In this document: one piece after another, positions 10,292 to 15,135 of the stretch
Position numbering within the stretch: position 1 is the stretch's first letter
Layout: the number at the start of each line of letters is the position of its first letter
Source of the DNA: an uncultured Ignavibacterium sp.
GTDB taxonomy: Bacteria; Bacteroidota; Ignavibacteria; Ignavibacteriales; Ignavibacteriaceae
Direction of reading: 5' to 3'
Assembly (NCBI GenBank): GCA_937125135.1
Contig: CAKZLD010000122.1
Location: 1-33,070, forward strand
Length of the DNA: 33,070 bases
Notes under the pieces: generated by a model
Told to the model about the DNA's origin: nothing
Seen by the model: only the letters and a program-made list of their open reading frames with translations
Database searches by the model: none
Translations under genes and position numbers: made by a program

Positions 10292-10876
10292 TTACTCCTT
10301 GTTTAATAGTTTTTTTATTAGATTTTTTACTTCGTTAGTAACTTGATTTAGTTCATTGTTCACAAAAACAAAATCAAATTGATTCTTATAACTCAATTCC
10401 ATCTCAGCTCTTTCTATTCGCTTTTTCAAATCCTCTTCTGACTCTGTTTTTCTGGATTTAAGTCTTTTAACAAGTTCATCAAAAGACGGCACATCAATAA
10501 AAATTGTGATCGAGTCAGGATAAAGTTTTTTAACGCTCAAAGCACCTTTAACATCCAATTCCAATAAAATAGATTTATTGTTTTGTAAAGTTTTATTTAC
10601 CAATTCCTTTGGAGTACCGTAATAATAATCATAAAATCTTTCCCATTCAATAAATTCCTCCTTATCTATTTTTTCTAAAAATTCTTTCTCAGTTATAAAA
10701 AAATAATCAACACCTTCTATCTCATTTTTTCTTTTTGGGCGAGTTGTAGCAGATACTGAAAAAACAATTTCGGGAAATTTTTTCAGAATCTCTTTTACTA
10801 TTGATGTCTTTCCCCCGCCACTGGGAGATGAGATTACAATTACTTTTGAAGTTTTCTTTTCAGTATTACTCAACAT
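10292..10876 (-). CDS. gmk: Guanylate kinase
   Basis: It phosphorylates GMP to GDP with ATP. The P-loop is SSPSGGGKTS, followed by SVSATTRPKRKNEIEGVDYFF (GMP-binding), FIEW and the lid region KRIERAEMELSY. I choose the ATG at 10874-10876, which gives 194 residues beginning MLSNTEKK and an 11-nt overlap with the yicC stop. An upstream in-frame TTG at 10942 would add 22 charged residues inside yicC and is not typical of the family. No strong ribosome-binding site is seen, so translational coupling to yicC is likely. Identity is sure; the start is likely. Confidence 0.95.
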   Translation of the reverse strand: MLSNTEKKTSKVIVISSPSGGGKTSIVKEILKKFPEIVFSVSATTRPKRKNEIEGVDYFFITEKEFLEKIDKEEFIEWERFYDYYYGTPKELVNKTLQNNKSILLELDVKGALSVKKLYPDSITIFIDVPSFDELVKRLKSRKTESEEDLKKRIERAEMELSYKNQFDFVFVNNELNQVTNEVKNLIKKLLNKE

Positions 10877-11750
10877 TTTGAATTTGTTCTCTGATTCTTT
10901 CAATTTCCTCTTTAATCTCAATTGCTTTATGTGTAATCTCAAGCGATAAAGATTTTGCAGAGATTGTATTTGCTTCTCTATTCAATTCCTGACAAAGAAA
11001 GTTCAGTTTTCTACCGGGTTCATTTTCTTTTTTCATAATTTCAAGAAAATATTTCAAGTGACTTTTTAATCTGACACATTCCTCTGAGATATCGGACTTT
11101 TCTGCCAATAAAGCAAGTTCGAGTTTTAATCTGTCATCATATAATTCTGATGAATTCTCATTCAATAGTTGAAGAACTTTCGTTTTATAATTTTCAAAAT
11201 GTTCATTTACACTTTGCGATGTAAACGATTCAATTTCCTGAACTTTTGCTTCAATTTTTTTTATGCGTTTAGTTAAATCTTTTTCTAATTCAGCTCCTTC
11301 ATTCCTTTTCATTTTAATTAACTCATCCAAAGCAGTATTGATCGCAATTTTAAGCTGTTCAAATTCTTCTTCAGGTAACTCTTCGCCAAAAGAAGAAAAA
11401 ATATCTTTGTTTGCAAGAATATGCTCGAGTTTTATTTTTTCTTTCAGCTTGGCTTGTTTTTTTATTTCTTTAATTAATGACAAATATGTTTTTAATTTGT
11501 TATTATCGAAAGAAACTATTTCGCTATTTCCATTACCGTTCTTTTTATTATTAATGATTAAGGTAATTTTGCCTCTGTTGAATTTTGATTTAATAAGTTC
11601 TCTAAGTTCATATTCTTTATTTGAAATTGATGAAGGAACTTTAATCAAAATATCCTGATATCTGCTGTTAATACTTTTAATCTCAATTTCGAAGACAGAA
11701 TTATTGCAAATTGCAGTTGCTCTACCAAAACCTGTCATACTTACTAACAT
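10866..11750 (-). CDS. yicC: YicC/YloC family endoribonuclease
   Basis: A 294-residue protein opening with MTGFGRA at residues 5-11, the universal YicC start. The N-terminal domain contains SINSRYQDILIKVP, and the C-terminal DUF1732-type domain has EKSDISEECVRLKSHL and GRKLNFLCQELNREANTI. YicC proteins are endoribonucleases implicated in small-RNA turnover in E. coli and related systems; the target here is unknown. It heads the yicC-gmk-rpoZ unit, with a near-consensus promoter just upstream (11773-11803) and a GAGG ribosome-binding site. Identity is near certain. Confidence 0.95.
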   Translation of the reverse strand: MLVSMTGFGRATAICNNSVFEIEIKSINSRYQDILIKVPSSISNKEYELRELIKSKFNRGKITLIINNKKNGNGNSEIVSFDNNKLKTYLSLIKEIKKQAKLKEKIKLEHILANKDIFSSFGEELPEEEFEQLKIAINTALDELIKMKRNEGAELEKDLTKRIKKIEAKVQEIESFTSQSVNEHFENYKTKVLQLLNENSSELYDDRLKLELALLAEKSDISEECVRLKSHLKYFLEIMKKENEPGRKLNFLCQELNREANTISAKSLSLEITHKAIEIKEEIERIREQIQNVE

Positions 11751-11806: not shown

Positions 11807-13879
11807 TTAGAAAGCCTCTCCAATACCGAAATGGAATTCTAAATTACTAAAAAATTTCTTTGTGAAAATGAAAGACTTATCATCGGGATTGTATAATTTA
11901 AATCCGAAATCTATTCTGAACGGAGCTATCGGAGAATAATAACGCAGACCCAATCCAGTAGCAGTTGCAAACTGATTAAAAGCAATTTTCTTGTAACCAT
12001 TCCATACATTACCATAATCAAGAAATACAGCAAAGCCAAAATCTTCTGAAAACTTTCTTCTAAATTCAAGCGAACCTTCGATTAAGAAAGTTCCACCGCG
12101 CGGAGTATTGTCTCCACGATTAGTGATTCCAAAATATTGAACTTCGTCTTTTGGCAACAATTCTCTTGATCTCCATCCTCTTACTGAATTACTCCCGCCA
12201 CTAAAAAAAGTTTTGTTCGGTGGAATTAAATCATAATAGCCCTTTATTGACTGAATATATCCCACTTTAAATTTCCATCCGAGTGCACCGTTTTGATCTC
12301 TTGAAACCGGGAAGAATTGAGAAAAAGAAGTTTGAATTTTCCAGAACCAGCCTGTCAGACTTAATTCTTCTGATGAGTCTGATTGAGAGATTCTCACATC
12401 AGTTTTTGCCTGAAATACTTCCGGATAAAAATACAAATTATACCCAGATATAGGGAAAAAAAGATTATTAGTTTTATAAGAGCCTAATTCTACACCTAAA
12501 GCCGGAGTAAGACTTTTTGCATTAATTGAAATTTCAAGTGATGAAAAATTTAAATCAAATTCCGTCAGCTCTAATGAAAACTGCGGTTTTAATAAGGTTA
12601 TAAAAGTGTACTCTGGCATTTCAAAATCAAAACTTTGACTTGCTCCGATGAGTCTTTCTGAATCAGTTTTAAATTTAGATGAACGATAATATGCTTTAGT
12701 GGCAGTTAAAATTGGTCTTCCGAATAAATAAGGTTGTTCAATACCTAATTCTAAATCTATAACTCCCTGATAAGTTGAATCTCTACCAGCTTGGGATTTA
12801 AATAAATTTCTGAAATCGAATTTTAGAATATCAATCAGTCTGAACGAAGTTGATAGATTAAATTTTCTTGCATTACCTAGAAAATTTTTTCTTACAAGAT
12901 TAATTCCAAGACCTGTGTTAAATGAATTAAAATCATTATCTACTTTAACTTCGGGTGAAATTTCATTCAGCGTTCCGACTTGAGCAACAATTTCAATCGG
13001 GACAAAATTATTTTGTGTATCCTTAATAACCGGATTAACTGAAATAGAATTGAAAAGTCCTGTGCGCAATAATCTTATTTCACTCCTCTCTAATCTTGAC
13101 TGATCATAATTTTCACCGGATTTAAGTGCAACAATATCTTTTATTAAATCGTTACTAATATCTGAAGAACCTGCTCCGGTTTTAATGATTTCTATTCCAT
13201 CTACAAGGTATTTATTTCCTGTATTAAAATAGATTTTCACATCCGCTCTGAATAAAGATGTATCCTTTATTACAACTGCACTATCATATTGAGCAAAAAG
13301 ATATCCGTTGTTTGTTAGATATCTTAAAACATCGCTGATGCTTTTTTCAATTTCTTTTTGCTTGAATGATCTTCCTTCTGAAATATTTAAAAATCTGCTT
13401 AGAAAAGATTGTTTTTCATCCTCTTGTAAAGATTCGATTCCGTAAATGTTCAGTTTTCCAAAAGTAGAAGGATTTCCTTCTTCTATAATATAAATCAACA
13501 CTGCTTTTTTATTTACTGAATCTAATTCAACAGCATTGCTTACTGTCGCAAGGAAAAAACCATTTGTTAAATAAAAATCTGTTAATGCTTTTATATCAAT
13601 TGGAATATTAAGTGAATCGAAATATTTCTTTTCACTTCCTAATGGAGTAAAAGACTTCAAAAATTTCCAGAACCACCATGGAGTTTTTTTGCTTTCTAAT
13701 TGAGCTGTTAATTCTGAAGCTGAGAACGATTTATTACCCTGAAATCTTATATCAATCAGTTCATATCTGAAATGATCTTGAGCTTCAACTTCTATAAAAG
13801 GCAAAAGGAAAAACAGCATTATCGCAGTTGTAAAAACTCTTCTATGAATCAGGGATTTAATCGAGTTTAATTTCTTCAT
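11807..13879 (-). CDS. TamA/BamA-like Omp85 outer-membrane protein
   Basis: A 690-residue Omp85 protein with a signal peptide (TTAIMLFFLLPFIEVEAQ). About three POTRA domains follow (roughly residues 38-300, with YELIDIRFQGNKSF, FGKLNIYGI and YLVDGIEIIK as their first strands). The C-terminal barrel carries the family motif SNSVRGWRSREL (VRGW) and ends in Phe. Three POTRA domains suggest a TamA-like translocation/assembly module rather than the five-POTRA BamA. I choose the ATG at 13877-13879; the TTG just upstream adds only one residue. The start overlaps the preceding lipoprotein gene by 23 nt. A TamB partner is not in the window. Family certain, TamA versus other Omp85 likely. Confidence 0.88.
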   Translation of the reverse strand: MKKLNSIKSLIHRRVFTTAIMLFFLLPFIEVEAQDHFRYELIDIRFQGNKSFSASELTAQLESKKTPWWFWKFLKSFTPLGSEKKYFDSLNIPIDIKALTDFYLTNGFFLATVSNAVELDSVNKKAVLIYIIEEGNPSTFGKLNIYGIESLQEDEKQSFLSRFLNISEGRSFKQKEIEKSISDVLRYLTNNGYLFAQYDSAVVIKDTSLFRADVKIYFNTGNKYLVDGIEIIKTGAGSSDISNDLIKDIVALKSGENYDQSRLERSEIRLLRTGLFNSISVNPVIKDTQNNFVPIEIVAQVGTLNEISPEVKVDNDFNSFNTGLGINLVRKNFLGNARKFNLSTSFRLIDILKFDFRNLFKSQAGRDSTYQGVIDLELGIEQPYLFGRPILTATKAYYRSSKFKTDSERLIGASQSFDFEMPEYTFITLLKPQFSLELTEFDLNFSSLEISINAKSLTPALGVELGSYKTNNLFFPISGYNLYFYPEVFQAKTDVRISQSDSSEELSLTGWFWKIQTSFSQFFPVSRDQNGALGWKFKVGYIQSIKGYYDLIPPNKTFFSGGSNSVRGWRSRELLPKDEVQYFGITNRGDNTPRGGTFLIEGSLEFRRKFSEDFGFAVFLDYGNVWNGYKKIAFNQFATATGLGLRYYSPIAPFRIDFGFKLYNPDDKSFIFTKKFFSNLEFHFGIGEAF

Positions 13880-14468
13880 CAACTATTTTCAGACTTGGAT
13901 AATCTTTTTTGAAATTCGAGATAATAAAATTTCTAATCATTAAATCTTCTGTGTTTTCGGATATAAATAAGGAAGCTGGATAATCAATATCGTTAACAAA
14001 ATGAGCATAGTAAACTTGTTTTTCATTCAAGTCAATGATATATGAGTAAATTTCTCCCCCACCGGTTCCCATAAAAAAGTTCAGAGAGTTATAATAGATT
14101 AGTTCAAATGGTTTATTCGAAATTTTTATTTTATCAAGCATACTCTCTTTTAAGGAGCCGGGTAAAATCTCAGTCTCATACTTACATTTAATTTTTTTAT
14201 TTGATTGCACGATATGATAAAATTTAATTCCCCAGTTGATGGTATCCATTTTCTCTGCACAGGCAATCACAGAAAGATTATTATCATCAAAGTTTCCGAC
14301 AAACACTCTGCTAATATCCGCATCAAAATGATTTTTAACTATTTCAAGTACTTGATTCTTATCTTCCATATTCAATTCGGGTATTGGTTTATCTTTTTTC
14401 CCTGAACAGCTGATAATAAAAACTGCTAAGACAATTAATGAATTACTTATTATTTTATTTGATAACAA
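13857..14468 (-). CDS. Putative lipoprotein of unknown function
   Basis: A 203-residue protein with a lipoprotein signal: a hydrophobic stretch (SLIVLAVFIIS) followed by the lipobox cysteine in FIISCSGKK near residue 21. The mature part has no motif I recognise; GTGGGEIYSYIIDL is the most distinctive segment and looks beta-rich. The start is a TTG, supported by AAAGGAAC about 9 nt upstream, and no ATG precedes the lipobox. It overlaps the upstream L,D-transpeptidase-like gene by 14 nt and the downstream Omp85 gene by 23 nt, so the three proteins are probably made together and may work together at the outer membrane. Function unknown. Confidence 0.75.
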   Translation of the reverse strand: MLSNKIISNSLIVLAVFIISCSGKKDKPIPELNMEDKNQVLEIVKNHFDADISRVFVGNFDDNNLSVIACAEKMDTINWGIKFYHIVQSNKKIKCKYETEILPGSLKESMLDKIKISNKPFELIYYNSLNFFMGTGGGEIYSYIIDLNEKQVYYAHFVNDIDYPASLFISENTEDLMIRNFIISNFKKDYPSLKIVDEEIKLD

Positions 14469-15135
14469 CTTTAGTTCCTTTGCTTATTACTGAATAAATT
14501 TCATTAATGTGTTCATCACTCAGAGCAATTGAACCATCTGTCCAGTTAAAGACAAATGGCAAATTACTTAAAAAGAAATTGAATCTTCCTATACCGTGTA
14601 TTCCAATATTACCACCAAGATTAGATTTATCTGTCGGACAATCTCCGACTGTCAAATCATTCATAATTGAATCAAATTCTCTTTGATTTATTAGTCCATT
14701 TCTTAGAGCATCAACAGCATCGGATTCGTTTGGATAATTCAACTTAAAAAATTTATTATACTTATGATTTGTATCTATTTCACAGATATAATAAACTCCA
14801 ACAGGTGTGGCTCCATCTTCTTTGAATTTCTTTTTATTAATCAGATTTCTTCCAAAGCTTGCTCTATATTTTTTTACTAATGTTGTATCTGAATATAGAT
14901 AAAGTGAGAATAATTTTCTATCAATAATAATATTAAAATTATCGGAATTTTTTTTTCCTGAATTGATTAGAAGTACTTTAAGAGGAACATCTCTGAGATT
15001 TAATATCATCCCATAAAGAATGACACAAAAAAGAAAAAAGGTAATTGTTACAATTGTAAAAAGAAAGTTCTTAAACAGATTAAAATTTTCAGGTAAGTTA
15101 CTTTTTTCGGTAAATGTATCAGTATCCTTTTCCAT
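14455..15135 (-). CDS. L,D-transpeptidase-like protein with Ser for catalytic Cys
   Basis: A 226-residue protein with one N-terminal transmembrane helix (about residues 22-46) and a YkuD-type domain. The domain shows GATPVGVYYI, then IGIHGIGRFN with His180 and NWTDGSIALSDEHINEIY. In active L,D-transpeptidases the last motif holds the nucleophile as G-C. Here the codon at 14530-14532 is TCA, giving Ser202. The protein may be a non-catalytic peptidoglycan-binding relative or use another chemistry; a sequencing error would need more than one base change. It is first in an overlapping trio with a lipoprotein and a TamA-like barrel. No Shine-Dalgarno sequence or TAnnTTTG box is evident. Fold likely, activity doubtful. 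Confidence 0.8.
   Translation of the reverse strand: MEKDTDTFTEKSNLPENFNLFKNFLFTIVTITFFLFCVILYGMILNLRDVPLKVLLINSGKKNSDNFNIIIDRKLFSLYLYSDTTLVKKYRASFGRNLINKKKFKEDGATPVGVYYICEIDTNHKYNKFFKLNYPNESDAVDALRNGLINQREFDSIMNDLTVGDCPTDKSNLGGNIGIHGIGRFNFFLSNLPFVFNWTDGSIALSDEHINEIYSVISKGTKVVIK

Follow-up and report, generated by a model that had tools for sequence, protein, structure and literature searches.

A YkuD-fold protein with serine at the catalytic cysteine position, fixed in one clade and encoded beside an Omp85-family gene

The closest described relatives of the protein reported here are two L,D-carboxypeptidases, Csd6 of Helicobacter pylori and Pgp2 of Campylobacter jejuni, and the peptidoglycan meso-diaminopimelic acid protein amidase DpaA/YafK. 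Csd6 and Pgp2 are cysteine enzymes (C176 in Csd6, PMC4599014). DpaA has a catalytic Cys143 and an essential Lys83, whose replacement (K83A) abolishes activity and whose side chain holds the diaminopimelate carboxylate in a docking model (PMC10653827). An engineered Cys-to-Ser mutant of LdtMt2 (C354S) gave no product with peptidoglycan fragments, and its crystal structure with substrate has been solved (PMC11410929). The catalytic Cys has also been lost in nature, in the second YkuD domain of LdtPae1 of Pseudomonas aeruginosa (QLGKIR), for which the authors proposed peptidoglycan binding (PMC10434034). As for the outer membrane, the mature, tetrapeptide-rich peptidoglycan of E. coli binds BAM and suppresses its activity (PMC9242858). 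How outer-membrane assembly is matched to cell-wall growth in diderm bacteria is an open question.

The window analysed here is a stretch of 33,070 nucleotides from an uncultured Ignavibacterium sp. (GCA_937125135.1, contig CAKZLD010000122.1). Its minus strand carries, in order, rpsB, tsf, pyrH and frr, then the trio of genes described below, then yicC, gmk and a small rpoZ-like gene, the names of these flanking genes being taken from reading their translations. Read from its TTG start, gmk shares 77 nt with yicC (10866..10942), and its real start is probably further in. The first gene of the trio (14455..15135, minus strand) encodes a protein of 226 aa, here called the pseudo-YkuD protein, with a predicted transmembrane helix at about residues 16-47 and a YkuD-fold domain at 64-226. 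The second (13857..14468, minus strand) has a TTG start and encodes a lipoprotein of 203 aa with its lipobox Cys at position 21, and the third (11807..13882, minus strand) an Omp85-family outer-membrane protein of 691 aa with POTRA domains and an Omp85 barrel at 333-691 (690 aa if the alternative ATG start at 13879 is used). The first two genes overlap by 14 nt, as the first-pass annotation had stated, and the lipoprotein and omp85 genes by 26 nt if the TTG start is used or by 23 nt if the ATG of the next codon is, so that the 23 nt given earlier applies to the ATG start. The same annotation had placed the whole trio at 13857-15135; three minus-strand genes are indeed present, but the Omp85 gene (13882..11807) lies outside that interval. 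Purifying selection is seen on ykuD (dN 0.13 against dS 1.07) and on omp85 (dN 0.10 against dS 1.44). The possibility that ykuD is a pseudogene was rejected, its dN/dS being about 0.12 against a 78% identical homologue with dS near saturation.

The 226-aa protein matched PF03734 over residues 69-225 with 59.5 bits (cut-off 23.4), and all 79 of 79 homologues matched the same model at an E-value of 0.001 or better. Its AlphaFold2 model (mean pLDDT 89.5) has an N-terminal helix at 16-47 followed by the YkuD domain. The best fold match of this model was Csd6 (Z 16.2, 2.4 A over 128 residues); Pgp2 followed at Z 14.8 and DpaA at Z 12.7, with YkuD enzymes overall at Z 11-16. By sequence, the nearest solved relatives were Csd6 (4xzz, E 2.3e-5) and then DpaA (8ikr, E 3e-4), and in a search of NCBIfam, which includes the DpaA/YafK family NF040599 (cut-off 365 bits), the protein had no match at E up to 1. 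These matches, the H180-G181 pair and the W-T-D-G followed by S202 (codon TCA) bear out the earlier reading of a YkuD-type protein with an intact HG and a Ser at 202. The label L,D-transpeptidase-like is imprecise, as the nearest solved relatives are the L,D-carboxypeptidases Csd6 and Pgp2 and the amidase DpaA. The other YkuD protein of the same genome (587-aa frame, contig C39, L001 1237-2997) has an intact SHGC motif, and a normal L,D-transpeptidase is probably present in this genome besides the pseudo-YkuD protein.

The codon of Ser202 (14530..14532, minus strand) closes the motif N-W-T-D-G-S, at the site that the nucleophilic Cys occupies in the family. Scanning the genome collection yielded 126 relatives, 80 of which were kept, and orthologues of the gene were found in 38 of 41 relatives. 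Among 99 non-redundant homologues residue 202 is Ser in 98, Asn in one and never Cys (80 Ser and one Asn in the 81 rows of the Ser clade in the tree), whereas in the nearest outside relatives, taken from this class and phylum, all 44 aligned rows have Cys, nearly always as W-T-x-G-C. The catalytic His and the counterpart of Lys102 are also each present in 44 of 44 of these outside rows. In the maximum-likelihood tree the Ser rows form one side of a branch (support 97/96) that is found in 99% of bootstrap trees, and the closest relatives with a name are Ignavibacterium genomes. The earlier question whether Ser is fixed within a clade can thus be answered with yes, and the simplest reading of the alignment and tree is that Cys would have changed to Ser once, at the base of the clade, and has stayed so since. 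A sequencing error at Ser202 was rejected, as TCA is two changes away from TGC or TGT and 98 of the 99 homologues have Ser.

His180 is present in the window protein but is not conserved across the clade. It is lost in 16 of the 81 tree rows (Gln in 15, Glu in one), requiring at least 11 changes on the tree, and 18 of the 99 rows are non-His (Gln 16, Glu 1, Ile 1); the lone Asn202 row has Gln here as well. The catalytic Cys of the H(S/G/D)X14-19C motif, by which active enzymes of the family are recognised, is replaced throughout (Ser in 98 of 99, Asn in one), and in the window protein S202 is separated from H180-G181 by 20 residues. One may ask if Ser202 is nevertheless an active nucleophile, the protein working by altered, Ser-based chemistry as a peptidoglycan hydrolase or a transpeptidase, as would suit a Ser that is almost invariant (98 of 99) and as is brought to mind by a YafK-family protein with Ser-dependent beta-lactam turnover, in which, however, the Ser concerned is another one, away from the Cys position (PMC13400389). 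We regard this as improbable, since LdtMt2 C354S makes no product (PMC11410929) and no His base is conserved; with His180 lost repeatedly, a Ser nucleophile activated by it is unlikely to be the conserved function. A mechanism of the Lpg1514 type through Ser132 was also rejected, as that Ser lies elsewhere; by sequence its place would be at about residue 124 (our own placement), and this residue is not conserved. As far as sequences can tell, loss of catalysis in the pseudo-YkuD protein is well supported. Of the two options offered by the first-pass annotation, a non-catalytic module fits the pattern, and altered chemistry is disfavoured by the natural His-to-Gln changes.

A residue important for substrate binding is kept. 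Lys102, the Lys nine residues before the proline of TPxG, aligns by sequence with K83 of DpaA and with the Lys of Csd6 (with C143 of DpaA at position 125 of the chain, K83 comes to lie at position 65), and it is found in 78 of 81 Ser rows and also in f54, a family of the same class from another order. Tyr126, equivalent to Tyr109 of DpaA, is found in 77 of 81 Ser rows and is absent from the f54 sequences. The kept Lys102 and the Csd6/DpaA-like predicted fold together suggest that the protein binds peptidoglycan. Alternatively, the YkuD domain may have become a dead scaffold whose ligand is now a protein (the POTRA domains of Omp85, the lipoprotein or a client) instead of peptidoglycan. Such a scaffold would accommodate the loss or drift of the two catalytic residues, the very strong conservation at positions other than these two (e.g. 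N197-W198-T199 and NLPF), the constant Omp85 linkage described below and the absence of Tyr126 from f54, but a pure protein binder would have no need for the Lys102 kept in 78 of 81 rows and in f54, and we consider this alternative possible but on the unlikely side.

Two further cysteines, Cys118 and Cys166, are present together in 93 of 99 Ser-clade sequences, with two rows lacking both and four lacking Cys166 only, and they are not conserved in the Cys relatives. Judged from this pattern they may form a disulfide. The same co-occurrence, restricted to the Ser clade, could be taken to mean that the nucleophile has moved from position 202 to Cys118 or Cys166, but the exceptions imply that neither residue is indispensable and a disulfide is the simpler reading of the pair, so that we give a moved nucleophile very little credence.

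Each of the 80 named loci has an Omp85 gene downstream of the YkuD gene on the same strand, and in 75 of them the Omp85 frame starts no more than 150 nt from the end of the preceding gene. Of the 54 loci with 5 kb or more of upstream sequence, 29 no longer have frr directly next to the YkuD gene (12 of these 29 have no frr in the stretch), while Omp85 stays. In 17 loci 1-5 kb of extra sequence lies between frr and the YkuD gene. In family f54 the Ser protein, the lipoprotein and Omp85 occur together in all four loci long enough to show them. An Omp85 relative is also present in other families of the class, where neither neighbour was detected in the fetched stretch, and no Omp85 was detected beside Cys-type relatives in five loci of about 11 kb each. 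The YkuD gene is lost and Omp85 kept in three genomes, where frr is followed by the lipoprotein gene and Omp85 (G007), by Omp85 (G014) or by a 758-aa frame and Omp85 (G025, the 758-aa frame lying at L157 6787-9060). Therefore the YkuD gene is accessory, and Omp85 can do without it. No sign was seen of a faster Omp85 divergence after loss of the YkuD gene, as the neighbouring genes also score low in those genomes.

It could be argued that there is no functional tie to Omp85 at all and that the gene order reflects slow shuffling of a housekeeping block, given that the surrounding frr, pyrH, tsf, yicC and gmk are also conserved and that three genomes have retained Omp85 but not the YkuD gene. Yet the link to Omp85 holds in 80 of 80 loci with frr adjacency lost in 29 of 54, which is more than mere slow shuffling would leave; the separate family f54 has the trio too, and short or overlapping junctions recur. 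We therefore take the absence of a tie to be distinctly improbable. With respect to the trio proposed at first, the order of the YkuD and Omp85 genes stands, but the lipoprotein is not obligate (undetected in 27 of 80 loci) and the YkuD gene itself can be missing.

The lipoprotein gene lies between ykuD and omp85 in the other 53 loci, and in 46 of these 53 it has a TTG start overlapping the end of ykuD by 14 nt. The loci in which it was not detected include all those named Melioribacter or Melioribacteraceae, and in most of them Omp85 comes directly next. In the alignment of the family the lipobox Cys21 and His156 are invariant, and a GSGGGE-like stretch is conserved. The earlier description as a lipoprotein of unknown family stands: the 203-aa window protein matched nothing in Pfam, no Pfam family was matched by more than two homologues, no relative was found among solved structures, and a Foldseek search gave no match at E 0.001. 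A second structural comparison gave Z values all below 8, mostly to propeller-like eukaryotic entries.

The 691-aa protein matches Omp85 and POTRA models and is one of five Omp85 proteins in the genome, another of which (contig C238, L142 1489-3921) has a patatin-like domain fused to the barrel (PlpD-like). Against the curated models it scored 174.9 bits for BamA (TIGR03303, cut-off 297.15), 120.9 for TamA (NF047950, cut-off 625) and 146.4 for TamL (NF052279, cut-off 400), below the cut-off each time. It was rejected as BamA of this genome, since a different protein passes that cut-off with 398.9 bits; by these scores it is an Omp85 paralogue separate from BamA. The Omp85 barrel of the first reading is thus confirmed, but its TamA-like character is not established. 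Of 39 genomes of the order, 11 had a match to TamB (PF04357), mostly in frames of about 1500 aa; as the profile probably misses divergent copies, the absence of TamB is unusable as a sign that a TamA partner has been replaced.

The explanation we favour, to which we assign a probability of roughly 0.5, is that the pseudo-YkuD protein, anchored in the membrane and no longer an enzyme, binds stem peptides of peptidoglycan and links them with a dedicated Omp85. Its ancestor would be a YkuD-fold peptidoglycan hydrolase with a Cys-His pair, on the side of the Csd6/Pgp2 L,D-carboxypeptidases or of the DpaA/YafK amidases, in which the nucleophilic Cys was replaced by Ser a single time, at the base of the clade, and the His base was then lost repeatedly. 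The protein would be anchored in the inner membrane with its domain in the periplasm, where the domain, with the Lys that could hold diaminopimelate, probably binds, but does not cut, the stem peptides of mature peptidoglycan. By way of Omp85 and, in most genomes, the lipoprotein, the insertion of outer-membrane components could thus be made responsive to the cell wall, or else the pseudo-YkuD protein could position the Omp85 machine at the wall. The lost catalytic residue, the kept Lys and the Omp85 neighbour suggest a reader of the cell wall rather than a cutter. The coupling is deduced from gene linkage, and we likewise infer how the protein sits in the membrane, that it touches Omp85 or the lipoprotein, and what the regulatory outcome would be. 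Some points speak against this explanation: strict conservation of the Ser leaves room for some chemistry, the coupling is not obligatory as three genomes keep Omp85 alone, an inner-membrane helix and an outer-membrane barrel need a bridge that is so far hypothetical, and Tyr126 is kept in 77 of 81 rows yet absent from f54. A more specific version, which we offer only tentatively and think rather doubtful, is that a dead pocket of the L,D-carboxypeptidase type recognises tetra- or tripeptide stems and gates a dedicated non-BamA Omp85, whereby outer-membrane growth would follow wall maturation. Since L,D-carboxypeptidases act on tetrapeptides, a dead one might, speculatively, be suited to read the tetrapeptide mark.

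If the pseudo-YkuD protein does read the wall, it would be a separate and mutable candidate sensor, so that wall reading could be tested separately from outer-membrane assembly. Nature also offers here a clear example of a YkuD enzyme that lost catalysis once and stays under selection, and the trio gives a first functional lead for a nameless Omp85 subfamily and a lipoprotein family. Compared with the known systems, the protein shares its fold and the K, TPxGxY, NYPN and HG features with Csd6 and Pgp2, but it has Ser for their Cys, a drifting His and a membrane helix, and the NTF2-like domain of Csd6 is missing. With DpaA it shares Lys102 (Lys83) and Tyr126 (Tyr109), but has Ser for Cys143 and no match to NF040599. 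The 691-aa protein resembles BAM, TAM and TamL in its barrel and POTRA domains and differs in falling below the curated BamA, TamA and TamL cut-offs; BAM activity itself responds to peptidoglycan (PMC9242858), and in the tentative version above the gating of this Omp85 would run through a separate sensor protein, unlike the direct binding of BAM to the wall in E. coli. In the open-licence papers searched we found no description of BAM, TAM or TamL systems with a YkuD pseudoenzyme, nor of a clade-wide, stand-alone Cys-less YkuD protein tied to Omp85. A YkuD domain without Cys is known from LdtPae1, where the domain is a duplicate joined to an active one; here it is a protein of its own with a membrane anchor, present throughout a clade and with a genetic tie to Omp85.
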